34,043 nt of DNA from Gammaproteobacteria bacterium (GTDB lineage Bacteria > Pseudomonadota > Gammaproteobacteria > Ga0077554 > Ga007554), in the NCBI GenBank assembly GCA_005240065.1, contig SBBG01000041.1, positions 1 through 34,043 of the forward strand, in the 5' to 3' direction. The translations under genes and the position numbers were made by a program. Under the pieces are notes generated by a model that was not told where the DNA came from, searched no databases, and saw only the letters and a program-made list of their open reading frames with translations. Positions 5,853 to 33,645 of the stretch are shown in pieces; position 1 is the first letter of the stretch, and the number at the start of each line of letters is the position of its first letter.

Positions 5853-5857
5853 GACAC

Positions 5858-6409
5858 ATGGTGTCGTTGAGTGTCGATGAGATGCCGTTCGGGCTGTTGC
5901 ACGACATCGAGCGGCGCAGTCTCGAGAGCGGCGCCGAGCTTCCTCGGGAAGAAGAAAGAAAGCCGGGATGGACCGGCGTTGCCTTCAAGCTGGACGGCAA
6001 CCTTATGGCGGTTTCCCTTCATGATATGGCGGAAGTTATGGACTGTCCTCCTTGCACACCCGTGCCCCGTACCAAAGCATGGTTAAAGGGAATCGCCAAC
6101 GTGCGCGGCCGTCTTCTGCCAGTTGTCGATCTCCATGTATATCTGGGGGGGGAGCGAAGACCCTCCCGAAGAAACGCCCGCCTGCTCATCCTGAATCATG
6201 GCGCGTTATCGGCCGCCGTACTGGTCGATGAAGTGTTTGGCCAAAGGCATTTTCTTGACGAGAACCGTTGTCCGCTGCCCACGCTTGAGTCAGGCGGCGT
6301 GATGAGCTATGTACGGCCGTTTGCGTATCAAAAAGACAACGATCTATGGTTGGTATTCGATGCCCGTAAATTGATGATGGAGCCGGAGTTCGTGCGCGCG
6401 GCGCGGTGA
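5858..6409 (+). CDS. pilI: CheW-like coupling protein PilI
   Basis: A 183-aa single CheW domain preceded by about 40 less conserved residues. Supporting motifs are the strand FKLDGNLMAVSLHDMAEVM, the turn GIANVRGRLLPVVDLHVYLG (the most conserved CheW segment) and the later AAVLVDEVFGQ. It should bridge the receptor PilJ and the kinase ChpA. It starts 5 bases after pilH stops. A second CheW-like gene lies at the far end of the cluster (13615-14109), matching the PilI/ChpC pair known from Pseudomonas. Confidence 0.88.
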   Translation: MVSLSVDEMPFGLLHDIERRSLESGAELPREEERKPGWTGVAFKLDGNLMAVSLHDMAEVMDCPPCTPVPRTKAWLKGIANVRGRLLPVVDLHVYLGGERRPSRRNARLLILNHGALSAAVLVDEVFGQRHFLDENRCPLPTLESGGVMSYVRPFAYQKDNDLWLVFDARKLMMEPEFVRAAR

Positions 6410-6456
6410 GCAGGAGAGTTTTCGCGTTTTGTTCTGAATTTTAGAGGATAGTGGAT

Positions 6457-8229: not shown

Positions 8230-8275
8230 TGATTTTGGGCCGGGGGCTACGGATGGAAAAACAGGCGAAAACGGC

Positions 8276-11200
8276 ATGATAGCAACCGATCAAATGGATT
8301 ATAACGCCCTGAGATGGGTCAAGGGCGAGATCGATGTAAACCTGCGCCAGGCCCGTCAGGTGCTGGAAACGTTTTGTCTGTGCTCGGGCAGCGATGGCCA
8401 GGTACAATCCTGCGTGGCATTGTTGCAGGAGGTGCGCGGGGCGCTGAAAATGCTGGATCTCACGGGTCTGGCGGCGCTTGCGGAGGCGACAGGCCATGCC
8501 GTTGCGTCGTTGGACAAGGGTGAGGGATGCAAGACTTGGGCTTACGAGGTTCTGGCTCAAGCGATGAGGCGGCTTGGCGATTCGCTGGAGCGGCTGCAGG
8601 AAGGTCATTGCGAGATTCCTCAATCGCTCTTGCCGATGATCAACGATCTTCGCGTGGCGGCTGGCATGCCGCCGCTTTCCGAAAACATGGTGTTCGGGCC
8701 GGATGCTTTCTCCGTTATCGATCAGGGTCATCCCGAGACGGAAGATGCTGTTGCCAACGATGTGAAAACCCAGGCGCAACGTTCACGGCCGATATATCAG
8801 GCTGGCCTGTTGGTATGGTACCGCGACTCGGGAAACAAGGCGGCTTTGCGGCGGCTGATGCAAGTGGTCATGCAATTGCAACAGTCTTGTCCGGAGGAAG
8901 GCTTGTGGATGGTGGCCGAGGGGTTGCTCGAAAGGCTTCTCAAGGATGCGCTCGAAATCAATCCTGCCATCAAACTTTTGTTGGGACAGGTGGAGCGGCA
9001 GATTGGTCGAATTGCCGCTTCCGGCCCCCAGGATCTGCGCGACAATCCTCCGGCGGATCTAATCAAGAATCTTCTTTACTACATCGCCTATGCCGATACG
9101 AAAAGTGCCCAAGGCATGGCGGAGGAGACGGTTGTGGCCGGGCAAGCTTCGCCGGGGCAGAGCGGTATTCCGGTTGCGGCGAATCCCATCTTGCTGGAAA
9201 TGGCCGCCGATGCCGTCAAGGAGGAGCTGGCGTGGGCGAAGGACAGGCTGGATGAGTTCGCACGCGCCGGCGGGCGGCACACGTCCCGGGATTTGCGCGC
9301 CATCGCCGATGTGTTGAAGCGGGTATCGAACACGTTCGATATGCTGGGCCGCTGGGAATTGCGCCAGCGGGTGCGCCAGCAAACCGGGGTGATCGATACG
9401 GTTATCGAAGAAGGAACGATACTCAACGATCCGCGCCTGGTCGAAGTGGCCAATGCCCTGGTCTATGTGCAATCACTGCTGCGCGATGTTCCAATGCCAG
9501 AAGATTCAGCAGCGGAGGCCCCGGGCAAGGAGCTTCCGGAAAATGCCGCGCTGATCAGTGCGGCTGAATATCACGAGATATGCCGCATCGTCATCCGTGA
9601 GACCATGACCGATATGACGCGGGTCAAGGAAGATATCATGGCGTTGGCGAACGCGCCCGCGCAATATGATCTGATTGCCTCATGCCCCATTACCTTGCGG
9701 CGCATCATAGGCGTGCTGACCGTGCTATCGCTACCGCGCCCGGCCACCCTGTTGAAAGCGGTTTTCCACTATCTTCGTCGCGATCTGGCCGCAAGCCGGG
9801 AGGCTTGCTCGCAAGACGTGCTCAATATCCTGGCCGACATATTGACCAGTGTTGAATTTTATCTCGAAACACTGGCCGAGAGCCAGATGAATCTCGATTC
9901 GCTGCTCGAAATGGCGGAAGGACAAGTCGCGACACTTGGGTATCCGGTCGATGTGGTTGGCGATATGCCGATGGAGGATGGTGGCGCGGATGTGTCCGGA
10001 TCCGGCGTAGAATCAGCCGCTGTTGCCGATGACGCGGAATGTGCGGTGCAAGCGCCGGAAGTCGTCGATCAATCCCTTGTGATCATCGAGACTCACGCCT
10101 TGGAGAGCATCGCGGATGCGCCGGTGACCGAAGACATTACCGCGTCTATATCCACCGAGTCTGTGCCAGTTGCAATGTCCGGGCAAGGCGAAGAGATGGC
10201 GGATGAGATCATGGAGATCTTTGCCGAAGAAGCGGGCGCGGAGTTGGCGTCGATCGCCGAAAACCATCCCCGCTGGCGGCAAGGCAGCGAGGATGCGCTT
10301 AAGACCATCCGCCGTTCGTTTCATACCCTGAAAGGCAGCGGGCGGCTAGTCGGGGCAAAGGTGATCGGCGAAGTCTCATGGGCGATGGAGCATCTTCTTA
10401 ATGCCGTGATCGCCGGCGAGATCCCCGCTGGCCCAGCGATACTCAATGTGGTGGAGCGAGCACATGCGGCAATGCCTGGGTTGTTGCAGCAATTCCAACG
10501 CACTAAAGGTGAGGCGGATATCGGCGGTGTTGCCCAGGCACTGATAGACGAGGCGCGAACGTTGAGCATGCCGTCCCGTCCCGCCACCGAAATGGAACAG
10601 CCGCGGATCACGGCATCCGATGATACAGGCGAGCACTTGCCGCGGATCGATCCGGTGTTGCTGGAAATCTTCAGGCACGAGTCGCAAGGGCGTTTGGCGG
10701 AGGTGCGGAATTTCATCGACACTTGCGGTTCGACGGGGCGAGGCCGCGTGACGGAATCCCTGCTGCGCAATCTGCACACCTTGCAGGGTAGTGCGCGCAT
10801 GGCCGGTTTTCAGGAGATCGCCGATTTGAGCGGTCGCTTCGAGAGCTATATCACTCTGCTCAATCGCGTCCAGGGCGAAGTCATGGAAGATGCGATGTGC
10901 GCCTTGGGTGAATTTGTTGATCTTTTTCACGAAGTGTTGGGTCTGGCGCAGCCGCTGGCAGAATCGCCGGAAAAGGCGGCGATGCTGGAAAGAATCGCCG
11001 GATTGATGCGCCGGGCGGAGCATTTTGTTGCCGCCGAAGAACAGTCAGTGACTGCCGCCGAGGAGATGGCCAGAGCCGCCAAGGCGGCGCCACGCAACGA
11101 CATGGACGAGGTGCTGGCGGTTTTCCTGGAGGAGGCGGCGGAAATCCTGGGTAACATCGAAATCCTGTTGCGGCGCTGGATGCATGAACCGGGCGACCAA

Positions 11201-13597
11201 GAGCCAATAGCAAGGCTGGAACGCGAACTGCACACCTTCAAGGGCAGTGCGCGCACCGCGGGTATTGCCGCGATCGGCGACCTCAGTCATGGTTTCGAAT
11301 CCTTGTTGCGTGCCATTACGAACGGGGAGGTTGCGGTTACAGATGATATTTTCGGAATATTCGAGCAAGCTTACGACCGGCTTCAGGAAATGCTGGAACA
11401 AGCGTTGACGCGCCAGCCCGTCAGTGATGCCGAGGATTTGGTTTTGCGCCTGGAGGTCTTGGCGGGCATGAAGGAGGAGCAGGGTCTTCCGGAGGATTCG
11501 GAACAAGCCGCCTTGGCGGGCTCGGCACAGGCATTGATGGCGACATCTGTCGCGGAAGAGCTTGCCGATGCGCTTCCGGTGATCGAGGTGGAGAGGGGTG
11601 ACGGGATACGGTGCGATCGCAAGGAAAGTGTGCCTATTGCCAGAGAGACCGATGAGGCGGGTGCAGTGGTTTTGCAAGCATCATTGCCTCCCGTCGCAGA
11701 GGGTGGTGAGCCTCCAGCAGGCGATGCTGAGCCGGCCTGGCTGGATCGTATCCCCGCCACCGAACAAATTCGTGTGCGCGCCGATCTGCTCGATCATCTC
11801 GTCAATCAAAGCGGCGAGCTCAGCATTTTGCGTGCCCGCCTGGAACAGCAGATTCATTCCTTCCGTGGCGGTGTCGCGGAAATGAAGCAGACGGTTGCCC
11901 GTTTGCGCGAGCAACTGCGTAAATTGGATGCCGAAACCGAGGCGCAAATCCTGTTTCGCCATCAGGAATTGAGTTTGCAAGCTCAGGCGTTCGATCCACT
12001 GGAATTCGATCGCTACTCGCTGGTGCAGCAATTGTCGCGCGGCATGATGGAATCGGTTGCCGACCTTGTCAATATCGAAGATCACCTGGACAAACAGATC
12101 ATCGATTCCGACGCCGTGCTGCTGCAACAGGCGCGGCTCAATACCGAATTGCAGGAAGGCATGATGCGTACCCGGATGCTGCCCTTTGGCGGCGTAGCAT
12201 CACGGTTGCAGCGCGTGGTTCGGAAGACCGCGCGGGATGTGGGAAAACAGGCCGAACTGCATGTCACCGGCGTGGATCTGGAAATGGATCGCAGCGTGCT
12301 CGATCACATTGTCGCCCCGTTGGAGCACATGGTGCGCAATGCCGTGGATCATGGCGTTGAAAGCCCCGCCGTTCGCCGTGCCCTGCACAAGCCCGAGGCG
12401 GGAGTTATCACGTTGCGGTTGAGCAAGGAAGGTACGGAAATGGTGCTGCGCTTGAGCGACGACGGGCGCGGTCTGGATTTGCCGGCGATCCGGCGCAAGG
12501 CGGTCGAGCGTGGCTTGTTGCAGGAAAACGCCGCGATCGACGATCAAAGCCTGATGCAGTTCGTGCTCGACTCGGGTTTCAGCACCGCCAGCCAGGTGAC
12601 ACAAATTTCGGGCCGTGGTGTCGGCATGGATGTGGTGAATAGCCAGATCAAGCAGCTTGGCGGCAGCTTGTATATCGAATCCGTGACGGGACAGGGCTGT
12701 ACTTTCACCATTCGTTTGCCGGTCACGCTGTCCCTCACCAAGGCATTGATCATCCGCGATGCTGAACAAACATATGCCATTCCGCATTCCAGCATCGCTG
12801 GTGTCATGAGGGTTGGCCACGCCGCGCTGGAGCAGGTGCGTCACAGCGAATCTCCTGTGATCGAATACGGCGGCGTATCTTATCCGTTGCAAGCGTTGCA
12901 TGATTTGCTGGGCGAAGATGTGTCGCACTTGCCGCCGGGTCAGGATGACCGCCATCTGTTGCTGATGGTGCATGGCGGCGGTCTGCGCGCTGCGCTGCGC
13001 ATCGATTCATTCGTGGAAAGCCGCGAAATCGTCGTCAAATCCTTGGGGCCACAGTTGAGCGAGGTGCGCGGCGTGATGGGTGCGACCATCATGGGTAATG
13101 GCGCTGTGGCGTTGATTCTGGACATCCCCGCCTTGTTGCGCCTGGGATCGGTCGCCGGTCAGGTGCCGGCGCCGCAAAATGCACCGGGCGATCAGGTGCA
13201 TGGCGCGGGAGAGGTGACTGTCATGGTGGTGGATGATTCCATCACGGTGCGAAAGATCACCTCACGTTTGCTGGAGCGCAATCAGATGCAGGTGCTTGTC
13301 GCCAAGGATGGCGTGGACGCGCTGGAGATATTGCAGCACCATCTGCCCGACGTCATGCTGCTGGACATCGAAATGCCACGCATGGATGGCTACGAACTGG
13401 CTTCCGCCATCCGCAACGATGAACGCTTGAAGCGAATTCCCATCATCATGATCACTTCGCGCACCGGCGACAAACACCGCGAACATGCCTTGCGTATTGG
13501 AGTGAACGAGTATCTGGGCAAACCCTATCAGGAGCAGGAATTGCTCGATCACATCCGGCGGCTGACGGGCCGCTATGCCGCTGAACAGGCGGCCTGA
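8276..13597 (+). CDS. chpA: Hybrid chemosensory histidine kinase ChpA (Hpt-CheA-CheW-REC)
   Basis: A 1773-aa multidomain kinase. The start (DYNALRWVKGEI) matches ChpA proteins and leads into Hpt-like bundles without the phospho-His (for example LLQEVRGALKMLDL). Three intact Hpt domains follow, with H683 in HTLKGSGRLVG, H834 in HTLQGSARMAG and H986 in HTFKGSARTAG. A dimerisation helix (LLDHLVNQSGELSILRARL), an ATPase domain (N-box from H1351, HMVRNAVDHGVE; later DDGRGLD and GRGVGMDVV), a CheW-like regulatory domain and a C-terminal receiver with phospho-Asp D1697 (LLDIEMPRMDG) complete it. It phosphorylates PilG and PilH. Pseudomonas ChpA is longer (about 2470 aa) with more phosphotransfer domains. 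The ribosome site is weak; an in-frame ATG at 8294 is an alternative start. Confidence 0.93.
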   Translation: MIATDQMDYNALRWVKGEIDVNLRQARQVLETFCLCSGSDGQVQSCVALLQEVRGALKMLDLTGLAALAEATGHAVASLDKGEGCKTWAYEVLAQAMRRLGDSLERLQEGHCEIPQSLLPMINDLRVAAGMPPLSENMVFGPDAFSVIDQGHPETEDAVANDVKTQAQRSRPIYQAGLLVWYRDSGNKAALRRLMQVVMQLQQSCPEEGLWMVAEGLLERLLKDALEINPAIKLLLGQVERQIGRIAASGPQDLRDNPPADLIKNLLYYIAYADTKSAQGMAEETVVAGQASPGQSGIPVAANPILLEMAADAVKEELAWAKDRLDEFARAGGRHTSRDLRAIADVLKRVSNTFDMLGRWELRQRVRQQTGVIDTVIEEGTILNDPRLVEVANALVYVQSLLRDVPMPEDSAAEAPGKELPENAALISAAEYHEICRIVIRETMTDMTRVKEDIMALANAPAQYDLIASCPITLRRIIGVLTVLSLPRPATLLKAVFHYLRRDLAASREACSQDVLNILADILTSVEFYLETLAESQMNLDSLLEMAEGQVATLGYPVDVVGDMPMEDGGADVSGSGVESAAVADDAECAVQAPEVVDQSLVIIETHALESIADAPVTEDITASISTESVPVAMSGQGEEMADEIMEIFAEEAGAELASIAENHPRWRQGSEDALKTIRRSFHTLKGSGRLVGAKVIGEVSWAMEHLLNAVIAGEIPAGPAILNVVERAHAAMPGLLQQFQRTKGEADIGGVAQALIDEARTLSMPSRPATEMEQPRITASDDTGEHLPRIDPVLLEIFRHESQGRLAEVRNFIDTCGSTGRGRVTESLLRNLHTLQGSARMAGFQEIADLSGRFESYITLLNRVQGEVMEDAMCALGEFVDLFHEVLGLAQPLAESPEKAAMLERIAGLMRRAEHFVAAEEQSVTAAEEMARAAKAAPRNDMDEVLAVFLEEAAEILGNIEILLRRWMHEPGDQEPIARLERELHTFKGSARTAGIAAIGDLSHGFESLLRAITNGEVAVTDDIFGIFEQAYDRLQEMLEQALTRQPVSDAEDLVLRLEVLAGMKEEQGLPEDSEQAALAGSAQALMATSVAEELADALPVIEVERGDGIRCDRKESVPIARETDEAGAVVLQASLPPVAEGGEPPAGDAEPAWLDRIPATEQIRVRADLLDHLVNQSGELSILRARLEQQIHSFRGGVAEMKQTVARLREQLRKLDAETEAQILFRHQELSLQAQAFDPLEFDRYSLVQQLSRGMMESVADLVNIEDHLDKQIIDSDAVLLQQARLNTELQEGMMRTRMLPFGGVASRLQRVVRKTARDVGKQAELHVTGVDLEMDRSVLDHIVAPLEHMVRNAVDHGVESPAVRRALHKPEAGVITLRLSKEGTEMVLRLSDDGRGLDLPAIRRKAVERGLLQENAAIDDQSLMQFVLDSGFSTASQVTQISGRGVGMDVVNSQIKQLGGSLYIESVTGQGCTFTIRLPVTLSLTKALIIRDAEQTYAIPHSSIAGVMRVGHAALEQVRHSESPVIEYGGVSYPLQALHDLLGEDVSHLPPGQDDRHLLLMVHGGGLRAALRIDSFVESREIVVKSLGPQLSEVRGVMGATIMGNGAVALILDIPALLRLGSVAGQVPAPQNAPGDQVHGAGEVTVMVVDDSITVRKITSRLLERNQMQVLVAKDGVDALEILQHHLPDVMLLDIEMPRMDGYELASAIRNDERLKRIPIIMITSRTGDKHREHALRIGVNEYLGKPYQEQELLDHIRRLTGRYAAEQAA

Positions 13598-20460: not shown

Positions 20461-21348
20461 ATGAAACGCATTTTTCTGTTCCTGGTCACCAATATTGCCG
20501 TGCTGGTCGTTCTCAGCATTTCGATGCGGGTGCTCGGCATAGAAGGTATTCTCGATCAGCAGGGCATTGATCTGAACATGAATTCGCTGCTCATCTATGC
20601 CGCGATCATCGGCATGAGCGGTTCGTTCATCTCGCTGGCGATGTCCAAGTGGAGCGCCAAGAACATGACCGGAGCGCGTGTCATCGAGCGCCCGGCGAAT
20701 GCCACCGAGGCGTGGCTGGTGGACACCGTGCGGCGTCAGGCGCAGAAGGCCGGGATCGGCATGCCGGAAGTGGCGATCTATGATTCGCCCGACGTGAATG
20801 CTTTCGCCACTGGCATGAAGCGTAACAATGCGCTGGTGGCCGTAAGCACGGGATTGTTGCGCTCCATGAGCCAGGATGAAGCCGAGGCGGTGCTGGCGCA
20901 TGAGGTCAGCCACGTCGCCAATGGCGACATGGTGACTCTGGCGCTGGTGCAGGGTGTTGTGAACACCTTCGTCATCGTGCTGTCGCGGGTGGTCGGTCAC
21001 CTGGTTGACAGGGTGGTGTTCAAGACCGAGCGTGGCCATGGTCCGGCTTTCTGGGTGACCTCCATCGTCGCCGAACTGGTGCTCGGTGTGTTGGCGAGCA
21101 TCATCGTCATGTGGTTCAGCCGTCAGCGTGAATTCCGCGCCGACGCCGGTGGCGCTGGCCTTGCCGGCCGCGAGAAAATGATTTCCGCCCTGGAACGTTT
21201 GAAGGCGAATGCGGGTCAGCCGCACCTGCCCGACCAGATGGCGGCGTTCGGCATCTCCGGCGGTATCGGCCACGGCCTGCGGCGTCTGTTCATGAGTCAT
21301 CCGCCGCTGGATGAACGAATCGCGGCATTGCGCGCCGCGCGCGGTTGA
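20461..21348 (+). CDS. htpX: Membrane-bound heat-shock zinc metalloprotease HtpX
   Basis: A 295-aa M48B protease that degrades misfolded inner-membrane proteins alongside FtsH. The zinc site is H147-E148-x-x-H151 ([13 protein letters not shown]) with the third ligand E224 in [12 protein letters not shown]. Four hydrophobic segments are visible at about residues 4-24, 38-58, 158-178 and 195-220, with the catalytic domain facing the cytosol. The C-terminus [14 protein letters not shown] is typical. The ATG has GAGG 6 bases upstream and lies behind a sigma-32 promoter (20399-20427), consistent with heat induction. A terminator follows, so it is a one-gene transcript. Confidence 0.96.
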
Positions 21349-21360
21349 CAGGAAAGCCCC

Positions 21361-21391
21361 AGAGACACCCCTTCGCGGGTGTCTCTGTTTT
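21361..21391 (+). terminator. Rho-independent terminator after htpX
   Basis: A perfect 10-bp stem AGAGACACCC / GGGTGTCTCT (21361-21370 and 21377-21386) with the loop CTTCGC is followed by GTTTTT. It lies 12 bases after the htpX stop codon. Confidence 0.92.
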
Positions 21392-21431
21392 TGGGGTGCT
21401 AAAGAATTGAAATGGAGCAAGGAGAATAAAA

Positions 21432-21980
21432 ATGAGCATGACCGATATTATCGTCCGGCAGGAGACCGCCGATGACATCCGTGCGATTGACGTGGTCAAT
21501 CTCAGCGCTTTTCAAGGGGAGGCCGAGGCGGTGCTGGTGACGGCGCTGCGCAAGTCCGAAGACTTCATCCCGGAATTATCTCTGGTGGCCGAGATCGATC
21601 ACCGCATCGTCGGCCATATCCTTTTGTCACGGGCGCACCTTGACCAGCCCGCCGGTCAGATCGATGTGCTGGCCCTGGCGCCGATGGCCGTAGTGCCTTC
21701 GCAATCGCATCGCGGCATAGGTTCGGCGCTGGTGCGCGCCGCGCTCACCAAGGCGGCGAGCCTCGGCTGGCGCGCCATCGTCGTCGTCGGGCATCCCGAG
21801 TTTTATGCGAAGTTCGGTTTCGAAAAGGCTTCCAGGTGGGGCATTCAATGCCCTCTGCCGGTGCCGGAAGAATCGGTGCAGGCCATCGAGTTGATCAAGG
21901 GGGCATTGGCAGGAGGAGGCGCCATTCGTTATCCGCTAGCGCTGACGGAATTTTTTCAGCAGACGAAGGGTGCGTCATAA
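21432..21980 (+). CDS. GNAT family N-acetyltransferase (YhbS-like)
   Basis: A 182-aa protein with the acetyl-CoA binding segment in MAVVPSQSHRGIGSALVRAA (about residues 78-97). Before it comes a substrate strand LVAEIDHRIVGHILLSRA, and after it the VVVGHPEFYAKFGFEKAS stretch shared by YhbS-type acetyltransferases. The acceptor is not known for this subgroup. AAGGAG eight bases before the ATG is strong. It follows the htpX terminator, so it needs its own promoter, and it converges on the lipoprotein gene across a palindrome at 22000-22027. Confidence 0.88.
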   Translation: MSMTDIIVRQETADDIRAIDVVNLSAFQGEAEAVLVTALRKSEDFIPELSLVAEIDHRIVGHILLSRAHLDQPAGQIDVLALAPMAVVPSQSHRGIGSALVRAALTKAASLGWRAIVVVGHPEFYAKFGFEKASRWGIQCPLPVPEESVQAIELIKGALAGGGAIRYPLALTEFFQQTKGAS

Positions 21981-22035: not shown

Positions 22036-23834
22036 TCAGGGCAATATCACACTCACAAGACGGGCGGTGAGTTTGCGGTTGGCGGTGTCGTAGTCGCCGC
22101 GCGCCACGATTCGCCGCACCTTTTCGCCACTGTCAAGCCGGGTTTGCAGGCTGCCGGCAAAGCCACTGAAGCTGTGGTACACGTAGACCGTGCCGCCGTC
22201 GTTGATGGCGAACAGACCCTTGTCCTGGCTGTTGGCCAGGATCGCCGGACTGGGCGTGTTGTCGAGAGCGTCGGTTTCGATCCCGCCGCGCCACACCTTA
22301 TGCAACACGCTGCCGTTCAGGTTCAGGTCGAGCCGGCTGGTGCTGGCGATGTTCACGGCGCTGGCGCTGGCGGGTAGCCAGACGCTCTCCAAGGTGGCCG
22401 GGAGATTGGCCAGGTCGATCACCGTCTGGGCAGTGAAGTTGGGGGAGGGTGTGCCGAAGGGGGTGCGAAGCCTCGCACCCGCACCGCATCGCCGGCTGTG
22501 ACCCCGTTCGGCATGAGGCCGGTGATATCCACCTCATAGCTGGCGGCGCTGGCCCCGGTGTCCGTGAATTTGTACTGTCCGGCCGGACGGCCGTTGAGGT
22601 AGTGCAGCGCCAGGGTCAGGGTGTTGCCGCTGATCGGCTGCACCACCGTGCCGCTGATCTGGCTGATCAGCATGCGCGCCAGCACCGGGCTGTCGAGCGA
22701 ATTGGTGTTGGGGTTCCATGCTCCCAGCAGCATGAGACGCTGGCCCACCGAGATGTCGTTCTTGGTAAAGGGATCCTTGGAAAGCTGGCGCGTCACCTTG
22801 GAGATGGCGCTTACGTCTACGGTGATGTTCTCTTTGAAGATCAGGGTGCCGTCCGGTTTGACGATGGATCCGGCATTGACGGTGAGGCTATCCCCGTTGC
22901 GCGCTATCACCACCCCTGTCACCATATCGTACTGGCTGCCGGGCACGCTGCTGCCGCCATAGACCTCACTGGCCTCGAAGCGCTTTGTGACGGTGTTGAT
23001 GGCGCCATGTACCACTACCCAACTGTTGGGCGTCTCTTTGGCCAGTGCCGCCAGACCGGCGCTGCCGGTATAACCCTGTCCGTCGATCTCGTAGACGGTC
23101 TGGTCATCGACATAGGCGCCCAGTTGGCCGAAGGCACCGTTGTCCGGGGTATAGAAGGGACGGATATTCAGGTCGATACGTGCGGCGTTCTGATCCACCC
23201 CGGCCAGCAGTCCGCGCATGCGATGGGGTTTGGGATCCTCCAGTTTGACGTCGGCGATCAGTATGGGGTTGAGGGTTACCTGCGCCGGTGTGGCGGCGGT
23301 GTTGACACTGTGAGAGGACTCCAGGTCGAAGTCGAGGGTCAAGTGGGCCGGTATGCCGGGGGCGACGACCAGTGGGGATGCATTCTCCAGCGTCACTTGT
23401 ACTTCGGTAATGCCGATGGGATTGCCATTGCTGTCTTTCACTTCGGCCTTCTTGGCGCTGCCGCCTGCCTCTACCTGAATGTCAGCAGTGCTGTAGTCCA
23501 GTGTCAGCGTGGCTTTGGTGTACTGTCCGGCGGGCACGGTGGCGGCGGTGAAGAGCTCGGTGAGTTCGGTATATTGGGCGAAGTCCACGCGGGTAGCCTG
23601 GGGCAGCACATTCACCACCGCGCCATTGGCCTTGGTGAGGGTGAGTTGTTTGACATCCACCGCATAAGTGAGGAAGTCGCCTTCGGCGTCGGTAAGGCCG
23701 ATGACGACCTCGCCCGTGCTACCTGCTGGGGTATCGCCACTGCCGCCGCCGCAGCCGCTCAGGGCGAAGAGGCTGGTCAGGAACAAGCCCAAGGCGCCGA
23801 AGCGCCGCATGAATCTCCACAAGTATGTTTGCAT
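22036..23834 (-). CDS. DUF4382-type lipoprotein with DUF5666-like repeats, frameshifted near its C-terminus
   Basis: Joining two frames gives a lipoprotein of about 600 residues. It starts at 23834 (MQTYLWRF) with GAGGAGA upstream, and has a type II signal peptide ending in the lipobox LSGC (Cys28), followed by GGGSGDTPAG. Residues about 38-200 resemble DUF4382 (VVIGLTDAEGDFLTYAVDVK). The rest looks like beta-rich repeats of the DUF5666 type, for example VVHGAINTVTKRFEASEVYG and AISKVTRQLSKDPFTK. The first frame ends early (stop at 22419). One extra C in the run of five at 22459-22463 would carry it smoothly on (FGTPSPNFTAQTVIDL) to the stop at 22036, ending with a repeat that fits the others. 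The function is unknown; it should be anchored in an outer or inner membrane. It lies 82 bases downstream of the DUF3106 gene and could be read from the sigma-factor operon. Confidence 0.78.
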
Positions 23835-23916
23835 GGTATGTCTCCTCGATGAATTACGGTTTCTCTTGGACAATAACGTATCGGCGCATTGCCGGTTGAC
23901 TTGCATCCTTCGTTTT

Positions 23917-24402
23917 TCAATGGGAAGGATCGTCAAGTTGCCGTGGCGGATTCTGCCGCCAGCGCTCGCGCAACGCCTCGCGTTGTTCCGGGGTGAGCTG
24001 GCGCCAGCGTTCGCGCAGATGTTCCCGCTCGGCGGGCGGCAGATCCTGGAACCGCTGCCAGCGGCGCAGAAGGCGCTGTTGCTGCTCGGGCGGCAGGGTG
24101 CGGAAGTGGCGGAAGCGCTCGCGGATTGCCTCGCGCCGTTCCGGCGGCAATGCCTGCCAGCGGCGGAAACGCTCGCGCGCCTGGGCACGCTGCTCCGGCG
24201 CCATCTCCAGCCAGCGCTGGGCGCCGCGTTGCAGCCGTTCCTGACGCTCGGGCGGCAGGTTTTTCCAACGTTCGGCAAAAGGGGTGAGCAACCGTTGCTG
24301 CTCGGGGCTGAGACGCTCCCAAGGGATGCCGGTATCGGCGCTGGTATCAGCCAGGGCAGGGGCGCCCAGCAACCAGAACAAGAGAATGAACAGCCTAATC
24401 AT
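23917..24402 (-). CDS. DUF3106 family secreted protein with Pro-Glu-Arg helical repeats
   Basis: A 161-aa protein with a signal peptide (residues 1-18, ending ALA-DT). The mature part repeats a unit of about 20-25 residues of the kind W..LPPERQERL, for instance WKNLPPERQERLQRGAQRWL, FRTLPPEQQQRLLRRWQRF and WRQLTPEQREALRERWRQ, so it should be a highly charged helical repeat protein in the periplasm. This is the DUF3106 pattern. The start overlaps the previous gene by 8 bases, so it is translationally coupled to the sigma-factor operon. The role is not known; by position it might be an extracytoplasmic sensor or target of the sigma factor. The repeats explain the strongly biased composition on both strands here. 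Confidence 0.85.
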   Translation of the reverse strand: MIRLFILLFWLLGAPALADTSADTGIPWERLSPEQQRLLTPFAERWKNLPPERQERLQRGAQRWLEMAPEQRAQARERFRRWQALPPERREAIRERFRHFRTLPPEQQQRLLRRWQRFQDLPPAEREHLRERWRQLTPEQREALRERWRQNPPRQLDDPSH

Positions 24403-24643
24403 GTTTGCGCTCCTTGGTGGAGGGTTCCTTGTCCTGCCGCAGGTCTTCCAGCCAGCGCAGGGGATCGGACCAGGTGGGATCGACCGGGCGTTCCTCTCCG
24501 AGCAACTCCAGAAGCTCCATGGCAGGGGCGGGTTCGGCGGGTGTCTTTTTTGCCTCTCCGCCCCAGGCTGGCGGCAGAATGCAGACCAATGCCAGTAGCA
24601 GCCAGCTTTTAGAACTTGCTAATAGATTCTCAGCCCGGTTCAT
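24395..24643 (-). CDS. Small secreted or membrane-anchored protein of the sigma-factor operon
   Basis: I do not recognise a named family. The 82-aa product (start at 24643, MNRAENLL) has one hydrophobic segment at about residues 13-28 (WLLLALVCILPPAWGG), which could be a signal peptide or an anchor, then a Pro/Ala/Glu linker and a charged tail including DPLRWLEDLRQDKEPSTKER. It overlaps the upstream DUF3619-like gene by 14 bases and the downstream DUF3106 gene by 8 bases, strong evidence that it is a real, co-translated member of the operon. An in-frame ATG 12 codons upstream is possible but less likely. Confidence 0.68.
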   Translation of the reverse strand: MNRAENLLASSKSWLLLALVCILPPAWGGEAKKTPAEPAPAMELLELLGEERPVDPTWSDPLRWLEDLRQDKEPSTKERKHD

Positions 24644-24971
24644 TGGCTTTCTCCAGCCACAGATAAAATTCCAGCTCATCGTACAGCTCGGGATCGGCTT
24701 GGCTGGTCAACAGTGCCATGTCATCCAATACCCCGGTCTCAGCGGTTTGCTCGATAAATCGCGTATCTGGCACGGTCAGCCACAGACCCAAGGCCAGCAA
24801 CATGCTGGCGGCCAAGGCCAGCGGCACGATCCAGCCCGGCCGGGACAAGTGCGGTGTGGCCAGGGCCTTGTACCGTGCTTCGACGAGGCGTGCGCTGATA
24901 TCCCTATCCAGGTGCTGCTCGGAGGCGCGCAGGGTGTGACGTGCCTGTTGGAGAAAATCGTCGTCTTTCAT
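24630..24971 (-). CDS. DUF3619-like single-pass membrane protein, candidate anti-sigma factor
   Basis: The 113-aa protein starts at 24971 with an ATGA overlap of the sigma factor stop codon. Residues 1-45 are a charged helix (LQQARHTLRASEQHLDRDIS, then ARLVEARYKALA) like the N-terminus of DUF3619 proteins. One membrane helix covers about residues 47-67, and an acidic periplasmic tail (DPELYDELEFYLWLEKANE) follows. In betaproteobacteria, DUF3619 proteins are found between an ECF-like sigma factor and a DUF3106 protein, exactly as here. Size, topology and coupling to the sigma gene suggest an anti-sigma factor, but no ZAS zinc motif (HxxxCxxC) is present, so this role is inference. Confidence 0.72.
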   Translation of the reverse strand: MKDDDFLQQARHTLRASEQHLDRDISARLVEARYKALATPHLSRPGWIVPLALAASMLLALGLWLTVPDTRFIEQTAETGVLDDMALLTSQADPELYDELEFYLWLEKANEPG

Positions 24972-25534
24972 GGCCAGTGATCTCCCAATTCGAAGCGCAA
25001 GGTATTTATCGCGCGGAAAAAATGTGTCTTGACGCTGCCCTCGCCGCAACCCATGGCAGCCGCAGTCTGCGCCACATCCAGACCCTCCCATACGCGCAGT
25101 ACGAACACCTGGCGCTGGCGCAACGGCAGCCCCATGAGTGCCGTTTCCAGGGCCGCCATGGCCTGGTTCTGCTCGGCACGACCGGACGGATCGGGATCCG
25201 GGGAGGGGAACTCACGCTCCGCATCTTCTGCGTGATTTCCCCCGGCATCGCTATGGAGGCTGCCGAACAACCTGCGCCACCGGCCACGGCGCTGCCAGTC
25301 GGTCAGGGCGTTATTGAGGATACGATAGAACAATGCCGGCCATTCTCCGGCGGGGCGGTCACGGTAATGGCCTACCAGCCGGCACATACTGTCCTGAACG
25401 ATATCCAGAGCATCGTCACGGTGGTGAGTGGTGAGCACCGCGATGCGATAGGCGCGCCGTTCCACGGAGGCCAGGAAATCCTCCAGGGTGATCGGAGAAA
25501 GAGGATCTTCATTGACCACCGCCGCGTCGCGCAT
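24968..25534 (-). CDS. RNA polymerase sigma factor, ECF-like
   Basis: A 188-aa sigma-70 family factor with only regions 2 and 4. Region 2 spans about residues 22-85, with RAYRIAVLTTHHRDDALDIV, QDSMCRLV and WPALFYRILNNALTDWQRR. A Pro/Asp/Glu-rich linker follows. Region 4 is at about 128-182, with LPLRQRQVFVLRVWEGLDVA and the helix-turn-helix TAAAMGCGEGSVKTHFFRAI. It probably directs transcription of its own operon and perhaps the lipoprotein downstream. The ATG at 25534 has only a weak ribosome site (GGTGA). Upstream, GTCAACC (minus strand, 25583-25589) and CGTTA (25562-25566) could form an ECF-type promoter for self-activation, but this is a weak call. Confidence 0.9.
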   Translation of the reverse strand: MRDAAVVNEDPLSPITLEDFLASVERRAYRIAVLTTHHRDDALDIVQDSMCRLVGHYRDRPAGEWPALFYRILNNALTDWQRRGRWRRLFGSLHSDAGGNHAEDAEREFPSPDPDPSGRAEQNQAMAALETALMGLPLRQRQVFVLRVWEGLDVAQTAAAMGCGEGSVKTHFFRAINTLRFELGDHWP

Positions 25535-25669: not shown

Positions 25670-27511
25670 TCAAATGGAATTCCAGAGCATTTCAAAATCA
25701 TTGCGTTCCGGTTTTTCCTGCGACGCAGTGGTTACGCGGGAGGACATGTTTTCCAGCAACGTGAAGCGGAATTGCGCGAACAGCCCGTTATCTTGAGTCA
25801 GTCCGGTGAGTGTGACGTGCCGGAGCGCGCCATCACTCGTTGCGCAGGTCAGTTTGTCTTCCGCTTTGAACAGGTGGGAGGGAACGATCAGCGTTGCAGC
25901 CTGGTGGATAACCTTGATTTCCGGCAGTAGCAAGCCCATTTCGTGAGCCGTGTTTTGTGCTTCTTCATCGCTGCGGCGCAGCGAGACGGCTTCGGCAATA
26001 GGGGAGATCATCTGAATGCCAAACTCCATCCGCGATTTCTTGACGTGTTTCATCCAGCGGATGACCGCCACACCCCATTCGTGCGCATTTTCCTCGTCGG
26101 CGGTGCTCACACCGATCAGCTCACCGATCTTGAATTTCGCCTCTTTCTTGTTGCCCTCCCAAGCCAGGCAGGCGCCGCCGGCGCTTTCATTGACGACTTC
26201 GCAGTTATACCTCGGATAAGCAGGAGTGGTGGCTTGGACAGCCTTTTCTTCGGCCTGTGCTTCTTTTCCGGCCTGTTGTTTTCGGAAATAATCGGTTTGA
26301 GTTGTAACATCCCATACATCCGGCGCATTCCGCTCTTCATCTCCCCTTTCTTTACCGTTCCAATTTTCCTGCGGGCCGTGAATGCCCATCACGGGGCGGC
26401 TGGTGAACTGCGCCTTGCCCTGGTTCATTGCGGATGACTCCCGGGATGTCACCGCAGAGTCGGACCTTGGGAGTGTGCCTCCGCAGGCCTGATATAGTGC
26501 ATCCATACCCAGCACGGCGATGATGCGGCTATTTTTATTCATGCGGGAGAAATGGCGCTTCATCGGCACTCCCCAGGCCGTGATCAATTTTCTCAGCAGT
26601 TCAGATGAAAGTATGGTGTTGGTTTGAGTATGGTTGTTGTTGCTCAATTCGCGCAGATGGTTGATCAAACCAGTGAGTTCCAGCAGCCGGTACAATGTCA
26701 GACGGGGATTTCTTTTTGCCGCCGGAACGGAGGTGGGTTCGTCTTTTTCAAGGTCGATTAAAAACGATTCCGGTGAAGTTTCAAGGCCGCTAACGAAACT
26801 CAATTTGGCGTAACCCGACCACTTTTCCAAGGCTGTTGCGATGATTCCGATGTCGCGTTGCGGTAAATGATAAGGATTGGCGAGCGCCAACAGCAACGCC
26901 TGCTTGTAGAGGTCGCTGATACTATGATGCGAGATCAGCGGATCTTCCTTGTCATGAATGGCGCTTTCGTGGAGTGTCTTGTTTTCGGCATAAAGATACA
27001 TCTGATGGATATCCCGCCACACCGTACTCGGGGACGACATGTAGGCTTGATATGAAGTGAGCAGCGCTTCGATCAGATATCGCATCGCATGATGCAGTAT
27101 CGGCAGCGTTTTGGCCATTGTAGGCAACGTGGAGGGATGGCTCACCAGGTTGTTGAGCGCGATCTTGTAACCATGGGCCATTTCAATCTGGAGTTCGCGT
27201 GCCAGCAAAGCGGCTTTCATGCCGGTATCGGATAACGGGAAAGAGATGCCGATATAGTGTTTCCTCAGCATATTCATGACATGCCGCAGGGGGGGGCGAA
27301 AAAGTTTCAGGATTTGGCAGCGATGTTGTACGGGTATGATGACGCGGTTTATGGAGGTCAACGCGCAGTAGATCGAGTGCGCGGTCTCGCCAGGGTTGGC
27401 CAGGGGGAGATTGTCGATCCATGCTTTGACTTTGACAGGATGTGCATCAAATGCCAATGTTTGCTGCTTTTCCGGGCACGGAGTGCTCAGATGAATGGCG
27501 GCATTTTCCAC
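25670..27511 (-). CDS. Large protein with degenerate PilZ-like C-terminal domain (paralog A)
   Basis: A 613-aa cytosolic protein without signal peptide or membrane helices. Residues about 25-330 are predicted mostly helical, with KVKAWIDNLPLANPGET at the start and ALLLALANPYHLPQRDIG near residue 200. A low-complexity linker follows (about 360-435). The C-terminal domain, with VVNESAGGACLAWEG (N441 of an NxSxxG motif) and WGVAVIRWMKHVKKSRMEFG, resembles a PilZ fold. The RxxxR half of the c-di-GMP site is not seen before it. The start is GTG at 27511, supported by GGGAGGA eight bases upstream. The neighbour at 27677-29416 is a clear paralog. I know this protein type as an uncharacterised gammaproteobacterial family; its function is not established. 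Confidence 0.8.
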   Translation of the reverse strand: MENAAIHLSTPCPEKQQTLAFDAHPVKVKAWIDNLPLANPGETAHSIYCALTSINRVIIPVQHRCQILKLFRPPLRHVMNMLRKHYIGISFPLSDTGMKAALLARELQIEMAHGYKIALNNLVSHPSTLPTMAKTLPILHHAMRYLIEALLTSYQAYMSSPSTVWRDIHQMYLYAENKTLHESAIHDKEDPLISHHSISDLYKQALLLALANPYHLPQRDIGIIATALEKWSGYAKLSFVSGLETSPESFLIDLEKDEPTSVPAAKRNPRLTLYRLLELTGLINHLRELSNNNHTQTNTILSSELLRKLITAWGVPMKRHFSRMNKNSRIIAVLGMDALYQACGGTLPRSDSAVTSRESSAMNQGKAQFTSRPVMGIHGPQENWNGKERGDEERNAPDVWDVTTQTDYFRKQQAGKEAQAEEKAVQATTPAYPRYNCEVVNESAGGACLAWEGNKKEAKFKIGELIGVSTADEENAHEWGVAVIRWMKHVKKSRMEFGIQMISPIAEAVSLRRSDEEAQNTAHEMGLLLPEIKVIHQAATLIVPSHLFKAEDKLTCATSDGALRHVTLTGLTQDNGLFAQFRFTLLENMSSRVTTASQEKPERNDFEMLWNSI

Positions 27512-27676
27512 GGCTCTGATCCTCCCGGTTGATCGTCAAGTGGTTATCCGTATTATCGGCGCGGTTTTTAAAAGCTTTAGACGAGCGGGGACAGTCAAGG
27601 AAGAGGCCGGTCTTCCTGCCAAGTGGAACCAGACTGGCAGCCTGTTATCGGCAGGTTGTGCAAGGCGAGAGATTCG
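27512..27676. other. Spacer between the tandem PilZ-like paralogs
   Basis: This 165-base gap holds the ribosome site of paralog A (GGGAGGA on the minus strand near 27520-27526) and an imperfect inverted repeat CTGCCA...TGGCAG at 27617-27641. I see no consensus promoter and no strong terminator, so read-through from B to A is possible. Confidence 0.4.
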
Positions 27677-29416
27677 CTAGAGAGAGTTCCACAACAGATC
27701 GAAACTCATGTCTTGTTCCTGCGCGGCGGGGGAAAGCATGCCATGGATGGACGCCTGGACGGGCATGAAATGAAATTGAGTGAAGTTGCGGTTGTTTTCC
27801 ATGACCTCGGTGAGTAACGCATGTTGTGTTCCGCCGGGAGTGTTGATGATGATCTGGGTGCCCGCCTGGAATGTCTTCGCCGGCATTATCAGTCTAGCGG
27901 ATGTGTTGCCGGCCTTGAGTTCAGGCAGCAGCAGGCCGGACAGCGGTGTTTCATTGGACCGATCCGCCCGGAGAGTGCGGACAAGCACCGGCTCCGCGGA
28001 AGGTGATAACATTTCAAGGCCGAATTCCAGTTCCGAGTTCGATGTGTTTTTCGTCCAGCGAATAACCGCGATGCTCCATTCGTCTATGTCTGAATCGCTG
28101 TTTTCCTGGATGGCGATCAGCTCATCGGCGTCGAAGGGCGGCTTTTTCGTATCGTTCGTTTTCCATGACAGACAGGCGCCGGCTTCACTTTCGTTGATCA
28201 CCGCGCAAATGTGCGTTGTGTAAAGCGTAGTTTTCGGCGCGGCTGTTTTTTGTTCGCGCTGTTTCTTGAAATGATCACCGCGTGATAGTACGGCGGCGGT
28301 TTTTTCTCCAGGCGCTTTTTCCGCCACGGATGCGTCCTTTTTCCTGAAGGAGTGCGCCGCATCCACCACGGAAGTTCTGCTGAGCGCATTGTAAATGGCG
28401 TCCAGCCCCGTCGTGACAACGACGTGTCCGGTTTTTCGCAGGCGCGGTAGGGACCGCCTCGAAACGATGCCCCAAGCCGAGATCAGCCAGCGCGAAAGGC
28501 CGGATGACAGTGGCGCCGGTTCAGGAGAGGGTTCGGGTGTTTCGATGGCGCTCGCGGCAAGATAGAGGCGATGGATCAGATCCGTGGTGTCGAGTGCCCG
28601 GCAGGAATCGAGGCCGCAATCCTTGTTGTTCGCCAGCGACATCGGCGGCGCGTCTTTTTCCAGGTTTATGACGAAAGATCCTGTCGCATTGTCGGGGTTG
28701 GATAGCGTGTTGAGGTGACTATGCGAAGCCAGCGTGTTGAGAGCCGTCGAGACCTCCAAGATGCCTTCCTGGGCGAGCTGGTAAGGGTTTGCCAGGGCAA
28801 GCAGCAGTGCATGTCTGTACATTTCGCTGATGCTGCGTGGCCGGCTTGCCGCATCTTCGGTGTCCGGTAATGGGCTTTCATGAAGCTTTTTCTGCTCCGT
28901 GAAGCGGTAAATCTCATGAAGATCGCGCCATAGTGTTTGCGGGCATGGCGCGTACATCAGGTAGGAAGTAAGCGCCACCTCGCTGAGATGGCGCATGGCC
29001 CGATGAAGGTGAACAAGCGTCATGCTGGCCGTGGCTTCGTTGGTCAGCAGACTGGTAGCGATGATTTTGTAACCATTGGCCATCTCCGTGTGGAGTTCGC
29101 GGACCAGATGGGCGGCCTTGAAGTTGATCTCGGCCAGCGGTAGTGGCGCGCCAAGATAATGTTTTTTCAGCTCGCCGGTAATGTGCCGTACCGGCGATTT
29201 GAACAATTCGAGAATCTGGAGCCGCGACTGGATGGCGATGCTCATCCGGTTCAGCGCCTTCAGTTCGTGATATACCAGGCGCGTGGTTTCTCCGGTATTG
29301 CTTAATGGCAGCCGTTCCAGCCATTCCTTCACCTTCGGAGGGTGAGGTTCACAGGCCAGATTCTGGGATTCCTGTTTAGGCGGAAGGTGAAGTCTCAGAT
29401 CGCAATTGTCCATCAT
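27677..29416 (-). CDS. Large protein with degenerate PilZ-like C-terminal domain (paralog B)
   Basis: A 579-aa paralog of the product of 25670-27511, sharing the same plan end to end. Shared segments include KVKEWLERLPLSNTGET, ANGYKIIATSLL, TLWRDLHEIYRF, ALLLALANPYQLAQEGI, FVINLEKDAPP and the last residues LLWNSL (LLWNSI-like ending in A). The PilZ-like motif is INESEAGACLSW (N408), followed by WSIAVIRWTKNTSNSELEFG. As in A, no RxxxR precedes it. Two ATG codons are adjacent (29416 and 29413); the ribosome site is weak. The two genes are 165 bases apart and in the same direction, so they form a tandem duplication, B upstream of A. An inverted repeat at 29494-29511 lies in the upstream region. 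Confidence 0.8.
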   Translation of the reverse strand: MMDNCDLRLHLPPKQESQNLACEPHPPKVKEWLERLPLSNTGETTRLVYHELKALNRMSIAIQSRLQILELFKSPVRHITGELKKHYLGAPLPLAEINFKAAHLVRELHTEMANGYKIIATSLLTNEATASMTLVHLHRAMRHLSEVALTSYLMYAPCPQTLWRDLHEIYRFTEQKKLHESPLPDTEDAASRPRSISEMYRHALLLALANPYQLAQEGILEVSTALNTLASHSHLNTLSNPDNATGSFVINLEKDAPPMSLANNKDCGLDSCRALDTTDLIHRLYLAASAIETPEPSPEPAPLSSGLSRWLISAWGIVSRRSLPRLRKTGHVVVTTGLDAIYNALSRTSVVDAAHSFRKKDASVAEKAPGEKTAAVLSRGDHFKKQREQKTAAPKTTLYTTHICAVINESEAGACLSWKTNDTKKPPFDADELIAIQENSDSDIDEWSIAVIRWTKNTSNSELEFGLEMLSPSAEPVLVRTLRADRSNETPLSGLLLPELKAGNTSARLIMPAKTFQAGTQIIINTPGGTQHALLTEVMENNRNFTQFHFMPVQASIHGMLSPAAQEQDMSFDLLWNSL

Positions 29417-29679: not shown

Positions 29680-30684
29680 TTACAAGGGTAATTTGCTAGA
29701 GGCGCCGGCTTCTTCGCGGACCAGGCGCGGGACGAGATAGCCGGGCAAGTGATTGCGCAGCTCGGTCAGGAGCGTTTCGGCGCGGGATGCGCCGGTGTCG
29801 AAATGCGCGGCGCCGCGCACCTTGTCCAGCAGGTGCAGGTAATAGGGTGTGACGCCGCTGTCGAACAGGATCTCGCTCAGATCAGCGAGCGCCGCAGGGG
29901 TGTCGTTCACCCCGCGCAGCAGCACCGATTGGTTGAACAGCGTCACGCCCGCTTCGGTCAGTTTGTCCAAGGCATGGCGCACTTGATCGTCGATCTCGTT
30001 AGCGTGGTTGGTGTGGATGACCATGACCGGCTTCAGGCGTGTCTTCCCGAGCCAGCCGAGCAGTCCGTCGTCGACGCGCTCGGGCAACACCACGGGCAGA
30101 CGGCTATGGATGCGCAGCCGTTTCAGGTGCGGGATGGCGGAGAGCCGCTGCGCCAGGGGCGCCAGACGTTGATCGGTGAGCGTGAGGGGATCGCCGCCAC
30201 TCAGGATGACTTCGGTGATCGAGGAATCGCAGGCGAGATAGTTGAGCGCGGCGTCCCATTGGCCGGCGGCGGGATTGGCGTCGCCATAGGGGAAGTGCCG
30301 GCGGAAACAGTAACGGCAATGAATGGCGCAGGCTCCGGTGGCGACCAGCAGCGCGCGCCCCCGGTATTTGTGCAGCACGCCGGGAAGCGGCATGGCAGCG
30401 AGATCCCCGACCGGATCCGGACTGAATCCCGGCGCATCGTATTCTTCGTCGTGATGCGGAAATATCTGCCGCAGCAAAGGGTCGCCGGGGTCGCCCTTGC
30501 GCATCCGCGCCACATAACCGCGCGGCACACGCAGCGAGAACTGGCGGCGCGCGATGGCGCTGGGAGGAAGGATGTCCGGGGGCAGGCCCAGCCACGTTAA
30601 CAGTTCAAGAGGGTCGCTGATCGCCTCGGCCAATATTTTTTGCCACTGGGAAGGCTGCCCAGAATGGAGAGTTCGCGGTAACAT
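29680..30684 (-). CDS. epmB: EF-P-lysine (R)-beta-lysylation protein: lysine 2,3-aminomutase EpmB
   Basis: A 334-aa radical SAM and PLP enzyme that converts (S)-alpha-lysine to (R)-beta-lysine for attachment to EF-P. The iron-sulfur cluster motif is C119-x3-C123-x2-C126 ([17 protein letters not shown]). Further family segments are [38 protein letters not shown] and the probable PLP lysine region [16 protein letters not shown]. The start at 30684 ([15 protein letters not shown]) gives the usual length; an in-frame ATG 28 codons upstream lies across efp and is not credible. It diverges from efp with only 76 bases between them. Confidence 0.95.
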
Positions 30685-30760
30685 ATGCGCACAGTTTACC
30701 CCAGTACGAAAGTTCCGGGCACCTACGTATTTACAAATACCTATTTTCAGCGAGGAAGGC

Positions 30761-31330
30761 ATGGCCACCTACAGCACCAATGAGTTCAAGTCGGGTCTCA
30801 AAATCATGATGGACGGCGATCCTTGCGCCATCTTGGAGAACGAGTTTGTCAAACCTGGCAAGGGACAGGCATTCAACCGCGTCAAATTCCGCAACCTCAA
30901 GACCGGCCGTGTCATCGAGCGCACCTTTAAGTCCGGTGATACCGTAGAAGGTGCGGATGTGGTCGATGTCGAGATGCAATATCTGTATAACGATGGGCAG
31001 CACTGGCATTTCATGGTGCCGGAAACCTTCGAACAGGTGGCCGCAGACAAATCCGCCGTGGAAGATGCCATCAAGTGGCTGAAGGAACAGGATGTCTGCG
31101 TGGTTACGCTGTGGAATGGCGTGCCTCTGAGCATCATGCCGCCGAACACCGTCACGCTCAAGGTCGTCGACACCGATCCCGGTCTGCGCGGTGACACCTC
31201 TGGCGGCGGCGGCAAGCCCGCCACCCTGGAGACGGGCGCCGTGGTGCGCGTGCCGCTGTTCGTCGAGATCGGCGACGTTCTCAAGGTGAACACTCGCACC
31301 GGCGAATATTTGTCGCGCGCCAAGGGTTGA
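30761..31330 (+). CDS. efp: Translation elongation factor P
   Basis: The 189-aa EF-P relieves ribosomes stalled on polyproline stretches. The modified residue is Lys34 in [14 protein letters not shown], the context recognised by EpmA. Three domains are recognisable: an N-terminal KOW-like one, OB domain II (with [13 protein letters not shown]), and OB domain III ending [13 protein letters not shown] 30761 is preceded by GAGGAAGG. The frame is open upstream but only this start gives the conserved [10 protein letters not shown]. Adjacent epmB and epmA supply the beta-lysylation machinery. Confidence 0.97.
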
Positions 31331-32634: not shown

Positions 32635-32970
32635 ATGGAACGCCGCTGGGCGACGCGGACGCCCATACACGTAGATGTCGGGATTTTTTACAAGGGCGGG
32701 GAAGTCGGAGTGCGCAAGGCTCGGGACATCGGCCTGGGTGGAGTATTTCTGGAAGCCACGGAATTGTCCTTGCCGCTGGAAGCGCACGTCGAACTGATTT
32801 TCATGTTGAGGTCGGCAGGCAAGCCGATAAAACACAAAATCAGGGCCAAGGTCGTGCGTGCGACAGACGATGGCGTCGGTTTCATGTTTCGCGATTTCGA
32901 CGCGATCACTTTCCGCTCCCTGCAGGAAGTGCTGCGTTACAGGGAGCCGCCCGACGAGCATCCTCACTGA
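32635..32970 (+). CDS. PilZ domain protein, candidate c-di-GMP receptor
   Basis: A 111-aa single-domain protein. The c-di-GMP signature is present as R4-x3-R8 (RRWATRTP) and D31-x-G33-x-x-G36 (RDIGLGGVFLEA), where the usual Ser of DxSxxG is replaced by Gly. The remaining strands, including LEAHVELIFML and HKIRAKVVRATDDGVGFMFR, fit the PilZ barrel. GGAGG is 8 bases before ATG 32635. The partner is unknown; candidates in the cell include type IV pilus or exopolysaccharide machinery. The promoter region looks RpoN-dependent. It converges with the DUF3330 gene, only 17 bases apart. Confidence 0.88.
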   Translation: MERRWATRTPIHVDVGIFYKGGEVGVRKARDIGLGGVFLEATELSLPLEAHVELIFMLRSAGKPIKHKIRAKVVRATDDGVGFMFRDFDAITFRSLQEVLRYREPPDEHPH

Positions 32971-33336: not shown

Positions 33337-33645
33337 TTACTCAAAGATCGTGGCCAGTCTCGCCAGCACCTCATCCATGATGGGCGCAGGCACATTTTCC
33401 ACTTTACGGGCGTGACATGAGCCGAGATCAAGAGCGCGAGGTTGGTCACATCGGACCACACCCGTCGTGCTCGTTCCCGCTCCCATGAGCGGCACCGCAA
33501 AGCCCGCCGTGCGAGCGAAGTTTCCACCGCTGGTGATTGGCATCACTATCGGGGTTTTCGTCAGGCGATTGAAGGCGGCTGGCGACACGACCAGGACGGG
33601 GCGCGTCCCTTGTTGTTCATGTCCGGAAGCCGGATCAAGCGACAT
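33337..33645 (-). pseudogene. mazF: MazF/ChpB-type endoribonuclease toxin lacking its N-terminus
   Basis: The frame from ATG 33645 gives 102 residues beginning MSLDPASGHEQQGTRPVLVV, a mid-domain start. Complete MazF/ChpB relatives begin about 8-10 residues earlier with a strand of the type KRGEIWLV. Upstream, the same frame reads IICWLNVL after a stop with no Met, so the first strand is missing or altered. The rest is well conserved: FNRLTKTPIVMPITSGG, TTGVVRCDQPRALDL and MDEVLARLATIFE. No ribosome site precedes the ATG. Without its first strand the toxin is probably inactive or badly folded, but this is inference. Confidence 0.75.

Follow-up and report, generated by a model that had tools for sequence, protein, structure and literature searches.

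Identification of two tandem paralogs

The window, the whole stretch of 34,043 nucleotides analysed here, carries two adjacent genes of the same strand, W1 and W2, whose products an earlier note had described as tandem paralogs of a PilZ-like family with no established function, and the question raised by this locus is to which protein family they belong and why two copies are kept side by side. Both open reading frames were recovered (Table 1), the GTG start of W1 being preceded by a good ribosome-binding site (GGGAGGA), and the two proteins align end to end with 229 of 619 positions identical (37%, E 5e-128), while a search of their own genome returned W1 and W2 only and no third copy. The motifs quoted in the earlier note were all found, with RLPLSNTGET and NLPLANPGET occurring one each in the pair, ALLLALANPY common to both proteins, NESEAG in W2 and NESAGG in W1, then ACL, and in addition AVIRW; the linkers were likewise seen to be divergent. 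No match to either protein was obtained in Pfam or NCBIfam, even at E 10, and the PDB sequence search with the window proteins gave chance matches only, such as RuBisCO.

Table 1. Coordinates of W1 and W2, of their domains and motifs, and of other genes of the window.
Feature	Position	Strand	Remark
Pil-Chp-like chemosensory cluster	5487–13597	+	CheY-like regulator, CheW-like protein, methyl-accepting protein, 1773-aa CheA hybrid
htpX and GNAT genes	20461–21980	+	Flank fimX in other genomes; fimX missing between W1 and these genes here
DUF4382 protein	22419–24278	−	Between W1 and GNAT/htpX
Small, weakly DUF3619-like protein	24630–25091	−	Between W1 and GNAT/htpX
ECF-type sigma factor	24968–25534	−	Between W1 and GNAT/htpX
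W1, tandem FimW-family paralog	25670–27511	−	613 aa; GTG start
W1 C-terminal tail NDFEMLWNSI	25673–25702	−	Each of the four W1 orthologs of sister genus g3 has lost it
W1 PilZ-like motif NESAGG	26174–26191	−	
W1 linker motif DVW	26312–26320	−	Missing from W2 and every W2 ortholog
W2, FimW-family protein	27677–29416	−	579 aa; next gene after epmB, where fimW stood ancestrally
W2 C-terminal tail MSFDLLWNSL	27680–27709	−	Family motif FxxLWxxL
W2 predicted second beta domain	27758–27994	−	Residues 475–553; C-terminal model
W2 predicted PilZ-like barrel	28001–28231	−	Residues 396–472; NESEAG as N/DxSxxG, no RxxxR
W2 predicted N-terminal all-helical domain	28379–29341	−	Residues 26–346; AlphaFold2; unmatched in Pfam, NCBIfam and PDB sequences
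epmB, EF-P beta-lysylation protein	29680–30768	−	Conserved upstream neighbour of the family
Small PilZ protein	32635–32970	+	RxxxR (RWATR) and DIGLGG
ChpB/MazF-type toxin gene	33337–33645	−	Near the contig end

Domain architecture of the family

AlphaFold2, given a family alignment of 23 rows, models W2 (mean pLDDT 79.9) with an all-helical N-terminal domain, as had been expected from the sequence, a disordered linker (residues 350–396) and a beta C-terminal region (residues 402–553) followed by a terminal helix. The N-terminal domain gave no match in Pfam and NCBIfam, searched with the window proteins and with N-terminal-domain members, or among PDB sequences, and the structure search that had been proposed for it, carried out by Foldseek with the full W2 model, returned no convincing fold match. 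BcsA, which contains a PilZ domain, was among the top matches of the full model and was set aside, as it stood among spurious matches such as Cry toxins, and the best BFVD matches, unnamed phage proteins, were taken as unspecific.

The C-terminal region, modelled alone with 70 homologs, reached a pLDDT of 88.9 and is read as two beta domains, the first of which resembles a PilZ barrel. Foldseek matched this region to the PilZ proteins MotI, VCA0042 and PP4397 with probabilities of 0.80–0.92 but with E values of at least 0.055, and MreC tops the list. The PilZ reading of the model agrees with independent sequence evidence, since PF07238 was matched by 20 of 70 family members (best 5e-5), with any other family recurring in at most two, and since hhalign related the family to a PilZ alignment built here with a probability of 80% (P 1.3e-5), the N/DxSxxG motif being aligned and the RxxxR segment lying outside the alignment. 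Of 125 non-redundant members, 109 have N/DxSxxG and 12 have an RxxxR within 40 residues upstream of the PilZ-like motif; W1 and W2 both retain the former and both lack the latter. The C-terminal domain is a distant, degenerate PilZ barrel in which N/DxSxxG is kept and RxxxR is gone, much as had been proposed from the motifs.

Distribution and gene neighbourhood

An alignment search of 274 genomes sampled across the Gammaproteobacteria detected the family in 135 of them, about half. PilM, taken as the type IV pilus marker, was present in 128 of the 135 genomes with the family versus 76 of the 139 without it (P 2e-15, kinship ignored), and FimX-level genes in 79 of 135 versus 21 of 139 (P 4e-14, kinship ignored). 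FlhA was utilized as a control for flagella, and among FlhA-negative genomes PilM occurred in 31 of the 34 that carry the family versus 36 of the 95 that do not (P 5e-8, kinship ignored), indicating that the family tracks pili even where flagella are missing; the comparison is of little power in FlhA-positive genomes, almost all of which have PilM. Nearly all occurrences of the family are in genomes with type IV pili, and the pilus link suggested in the earlier note is supported both by this co-occurrence and by adjacency to fimX.

Of the 56 loci where epmB was found, 53 have it on the same strand as the family gene and no more than 400 bp upstream. For about 50 of the 142 loci fetched, the next same-strand downstream gene codes for a PAS-GGDEF-EAL protein that in most cases begins with a REC-like part, one divergent GNAT gene standing in between in some of them. 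This neighbour is FimX, the Ketobacter copy matching PDB FimX 4j40 at E 4e-142 and a Pseudomonadaceae downstream gene at E 8e-187. Counted over 150 family genes, fimX follows 52, about a third, and 45 of these also have epmB upstream; the usual fimX-linked layout is epmB-X-fimX, where X is the family gene, and it was also observed in Acinetobacter baumannii NZ_CP077849.

Other subfamilies show other contexts, proS-X and X-pentapeptide. proS, upstream on the same strand in 18 of 142 loci (e.g. L079), forms a second conserved context, seen in betaproteobacteria and others. In eleven loci, L170 and L183 among them, the family gene is followed after about 27 bp by a same-strand pentapeptide-repeat gene, a distinct subfamily association. 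In locus L031 the FimW-like part is preceded, within one open frame of 668 aa, by an additional N-terminal stretch of unknown type. Since many paralogs occur in such contexts, not every family member need act on pili.

Probable identity of the family as FimW

Among Pseudomonadaceae-like genomes (family of G168), 34 of 40 searched contain the family, one of them with the order psd-X-fimX. The family gene was present in all 13 Pseudomonadaceae loci compared, and in 11 of these it is directly followed by a FimX 66–72% identical to that of P. aeruginosa, which is also the ground on which the compared genomes are inferred to be Pseudomonadaceae; of the remaining two, one has a FimX of 49% identity, and for the other no FimX was seen in the stretch retrieved. 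The Pseudomonas protein encoded directly upstream of fimX aligns end to end with W2 (29%, E 6e-68) and with W1 (28%, E 2e-68), and the PilZ-type C-terminal domain is shared. W1 and W2 are not adjacent to fimX, and are bordered by epmB upstream and GNAT/htpX downstream as in fimX-bearing loci; adjacency is a description of the P. aeruginosa gene and not a definition of the FimW protein. FimW is taken here to be PA4958 of P. aeruginosa. On this assignment and on the fimW position, 'encoded with FimX', the family is identified, by sequence and gene order, as the FimW family; as it holds position-orthologs of a pilus-extension regulator, the description 'no established function' can no longer be upheld.

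In P. aeruginosa, FimW is reported to be a c-di-GMP-binding protein that stimulates pili and pilus extension and is recruited to the cell pole when a surface is contacted (PMC10212136, PMC7519303, PMC11656802), its exact function being unknown and an interaction with FimX or PilB being without evidence so far (PMC11656802). A PA14 fimW deletion mutant twitches like the wild type (PMC12288467), so the effect of FimW on pili may be subtle, and PA4958 has been described as an Anr-regulated gene needed for swarming (PMC8087004).

Probable loss of fimX at the locus

The score search found no FimX-level gene in eight genomes of the bacterial family of the window, the best scores being 362 bits in its own genome and 415 bits in relatives, versus 520–1015 for nearly all rows counted as FimX. 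The candidates at 360–415 bits were rejected as orthologs, those inspected keeping EAL and DDFG, unlike most FimX, and W1 and W2 do not themselves have the REC-PAS-GGDEF-EAL order with degenerate catalytic motifs that characterizes FimX. Among GNAT-bearing loci, fimX is present in 17 of 20, and the three without it all come from the bacterial family of the window. Given these loci and the conserved flanks (epmB on one side, GNAT and htpX on the other), fimX was most likely lost from the W1/W2 site, and the loss is treated as specific to this lineage, since W1 and W2 fall in the half of the tree containing most fimX-adjacent members. The block of sigma factor, DUF3619-like and DUF4382 genes (22419–25534) lies near the fimX site of related loci and looks like an insertion.

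Duplication and division of motifs

The tree asked for in the earlier note places the W1 orthologs and the W2 orthologs in neighbouring groups (the nine rows together with a support of 99, the W1 group alone with 94), which dates the duplication before the split of genera g1–g3.

Two short motifs are differentially retained by the copies. A linker motif D[AVILPT]W occurs in 58 of 125 family members versus 3.7 expected from composition, and the Pseudomonas family protein also has DVW in its linker; its form D[VI]W is found in 8 of 8 W1 orthologs and 0 of 8 W2 orthologs. The C-terminal tail FxxLWxxL, on the other hand, is present in 8 of 8 W2 orthologs and 4 of 8 W1 orthologs. Across the family it marks 33 of 49 fimX-adjacent genes versus 19 of 74 others (P 6e-6), being near-constant in Pseudomonadaceae as DFDSLWKSL. 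Three of the four tail losses in g3 are due to a stop at the tail tryptophan codon, and the four may represent one event as they make up the whole genus. TGA recoding was considered for these three, the in-frame TGA standing at the tail tryptophan, and was rejected in favour of plain truncation. The split of motifs fits a division of labour between W1 and W2 and falls short of proof; together with the tree, the complementary losses lend weight to the specialisation after duplication that had been suggested.

Proposed role and alternatives

W1 and W2 are probably tandemly duplicated copies of FimW, which acts in the cytoplasm as a regulator of the extension of type IV pili. Each would be an adaptor at the pilus pole, whose PilZ-like domain may sense c-di-GMP by non-canonical residues or, alternatively, bind the PilZ/PilB motor as the pilus PilZ does, and whose helical domain and pair of short motifs are candidate docks for partners. 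In the lineage of the window the two proteins, perhaps as a heteromer, would perform the job of FimW in the absence of FimX, with the linker dock retained in W1 and the tail dock in W2. The tail is kept in genomes that have no FimX, which makes PilB, PilZ or FimW itself a likelier partner for it than FimX. A further-reaching version, in which the duplicated pair took over the pilus-extension control run by FimX and became, with its divided motifs, an obligate heteromer on the PilB/PilZ motor and a FimX-free switch, is offered tentatively.

It is also conceivable, though we think it rather unlikely, that W1 and W2 are pilus-motor adaptors like the pilus PilZ that bind PilB or PilZ with no nucleotide sensing in this lineage, as the scarcity of RxxxR and the disappearance of FimX, the usual c-di-GMP receptor of the pathway, would suggest; however, c-di-GMP binding has been reported for P. 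aeruginosa FimW (PMC10212136, PMC7519303), although its Pseudomonas relatives also lack RxxxR, so the missing motif does not predict lost binding in this family, and the c-di-GMP independence proposed in the earlier note appears doubtful. That the genes are redundant duplicates, one of them decaying, would account for the truncated tails of the g3 W1 orthologs but is improbable, given that both copies are kept in 8 of 8 genomes examined with reading frames open except for the g3 tail stop, that their terminal branches are comparably long (0.39 and 0.35) and that the losses are spread over both copies. An accessory role for EpmB in EF-P modification, considered on account of the closeness of epmB, was set aside as highly improbable, because several loci are psd-X-fimX or X-fimX with no adjoining epmB, many family genes lie far from epmB, the family tracks PilM and FimX, and no EF-P-related domain was found in the protein.

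On the reading of W1 and W2 as duplicated FimW, what is new is a lineage without a FimX-level gene (eight genomes), with two FimW copies and with motifs split between them. It represents a natural experiment in which FimX was lost while FimW was kept and doubled, which predicts that FimW is independent of FimX, and it suggests that what the tail motif docks onto is the motor or FimW itself. In addition, a family boundary, a domain layout and two candidate docking motifs are supplied for a family that has no Pfam or NCBIfam model.

Comparison with known systems

The canonical PilZ receptors (YcgR, VCA0042/PlzD, PP4397 and MotI) share with W1 and W2 the barrel fold and D/NxSxxG; unlike them, W1 and W2 have neither RxxxR nor a YcgR-type N-terminal domain, and carry the second beta domain after the PilZ-like one instead of before it. 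A relative of the small PilZ protein of the window is retained in the vicinity of the corresponding locus in six sister genomes (L062–L067). The pilus PilZ of the Xanthomonas PilB-PilZ-FimX complex is likewise a PilZ superfamily barrel without RxxxR that is tied to FimX and type IV pili, whereas it consists of a single domain of about 120 aa with no helical domain, and its profile does not match the family (hhalign probability 0.6%); a separate match of the pilus PilZ type is present in the own genome (G000:C78). The Pseudomonadaceae protein at the position of P. aeruginosa FimW resembles W1 and W2 over the full length, with the helical N-terminal domain, the DVW linker (kept in W1), the N/DxSxxG PilZ-like domain and the FxxLWxxL tail, and it differs in being present as one copy versus two in tandem, in having a FimX, which here neither adjoins the genes nor occurs elsewhere in the genome, in the linker motif that W2 has lost, and in a PilZ-like motif that reads NHS there and NES here.
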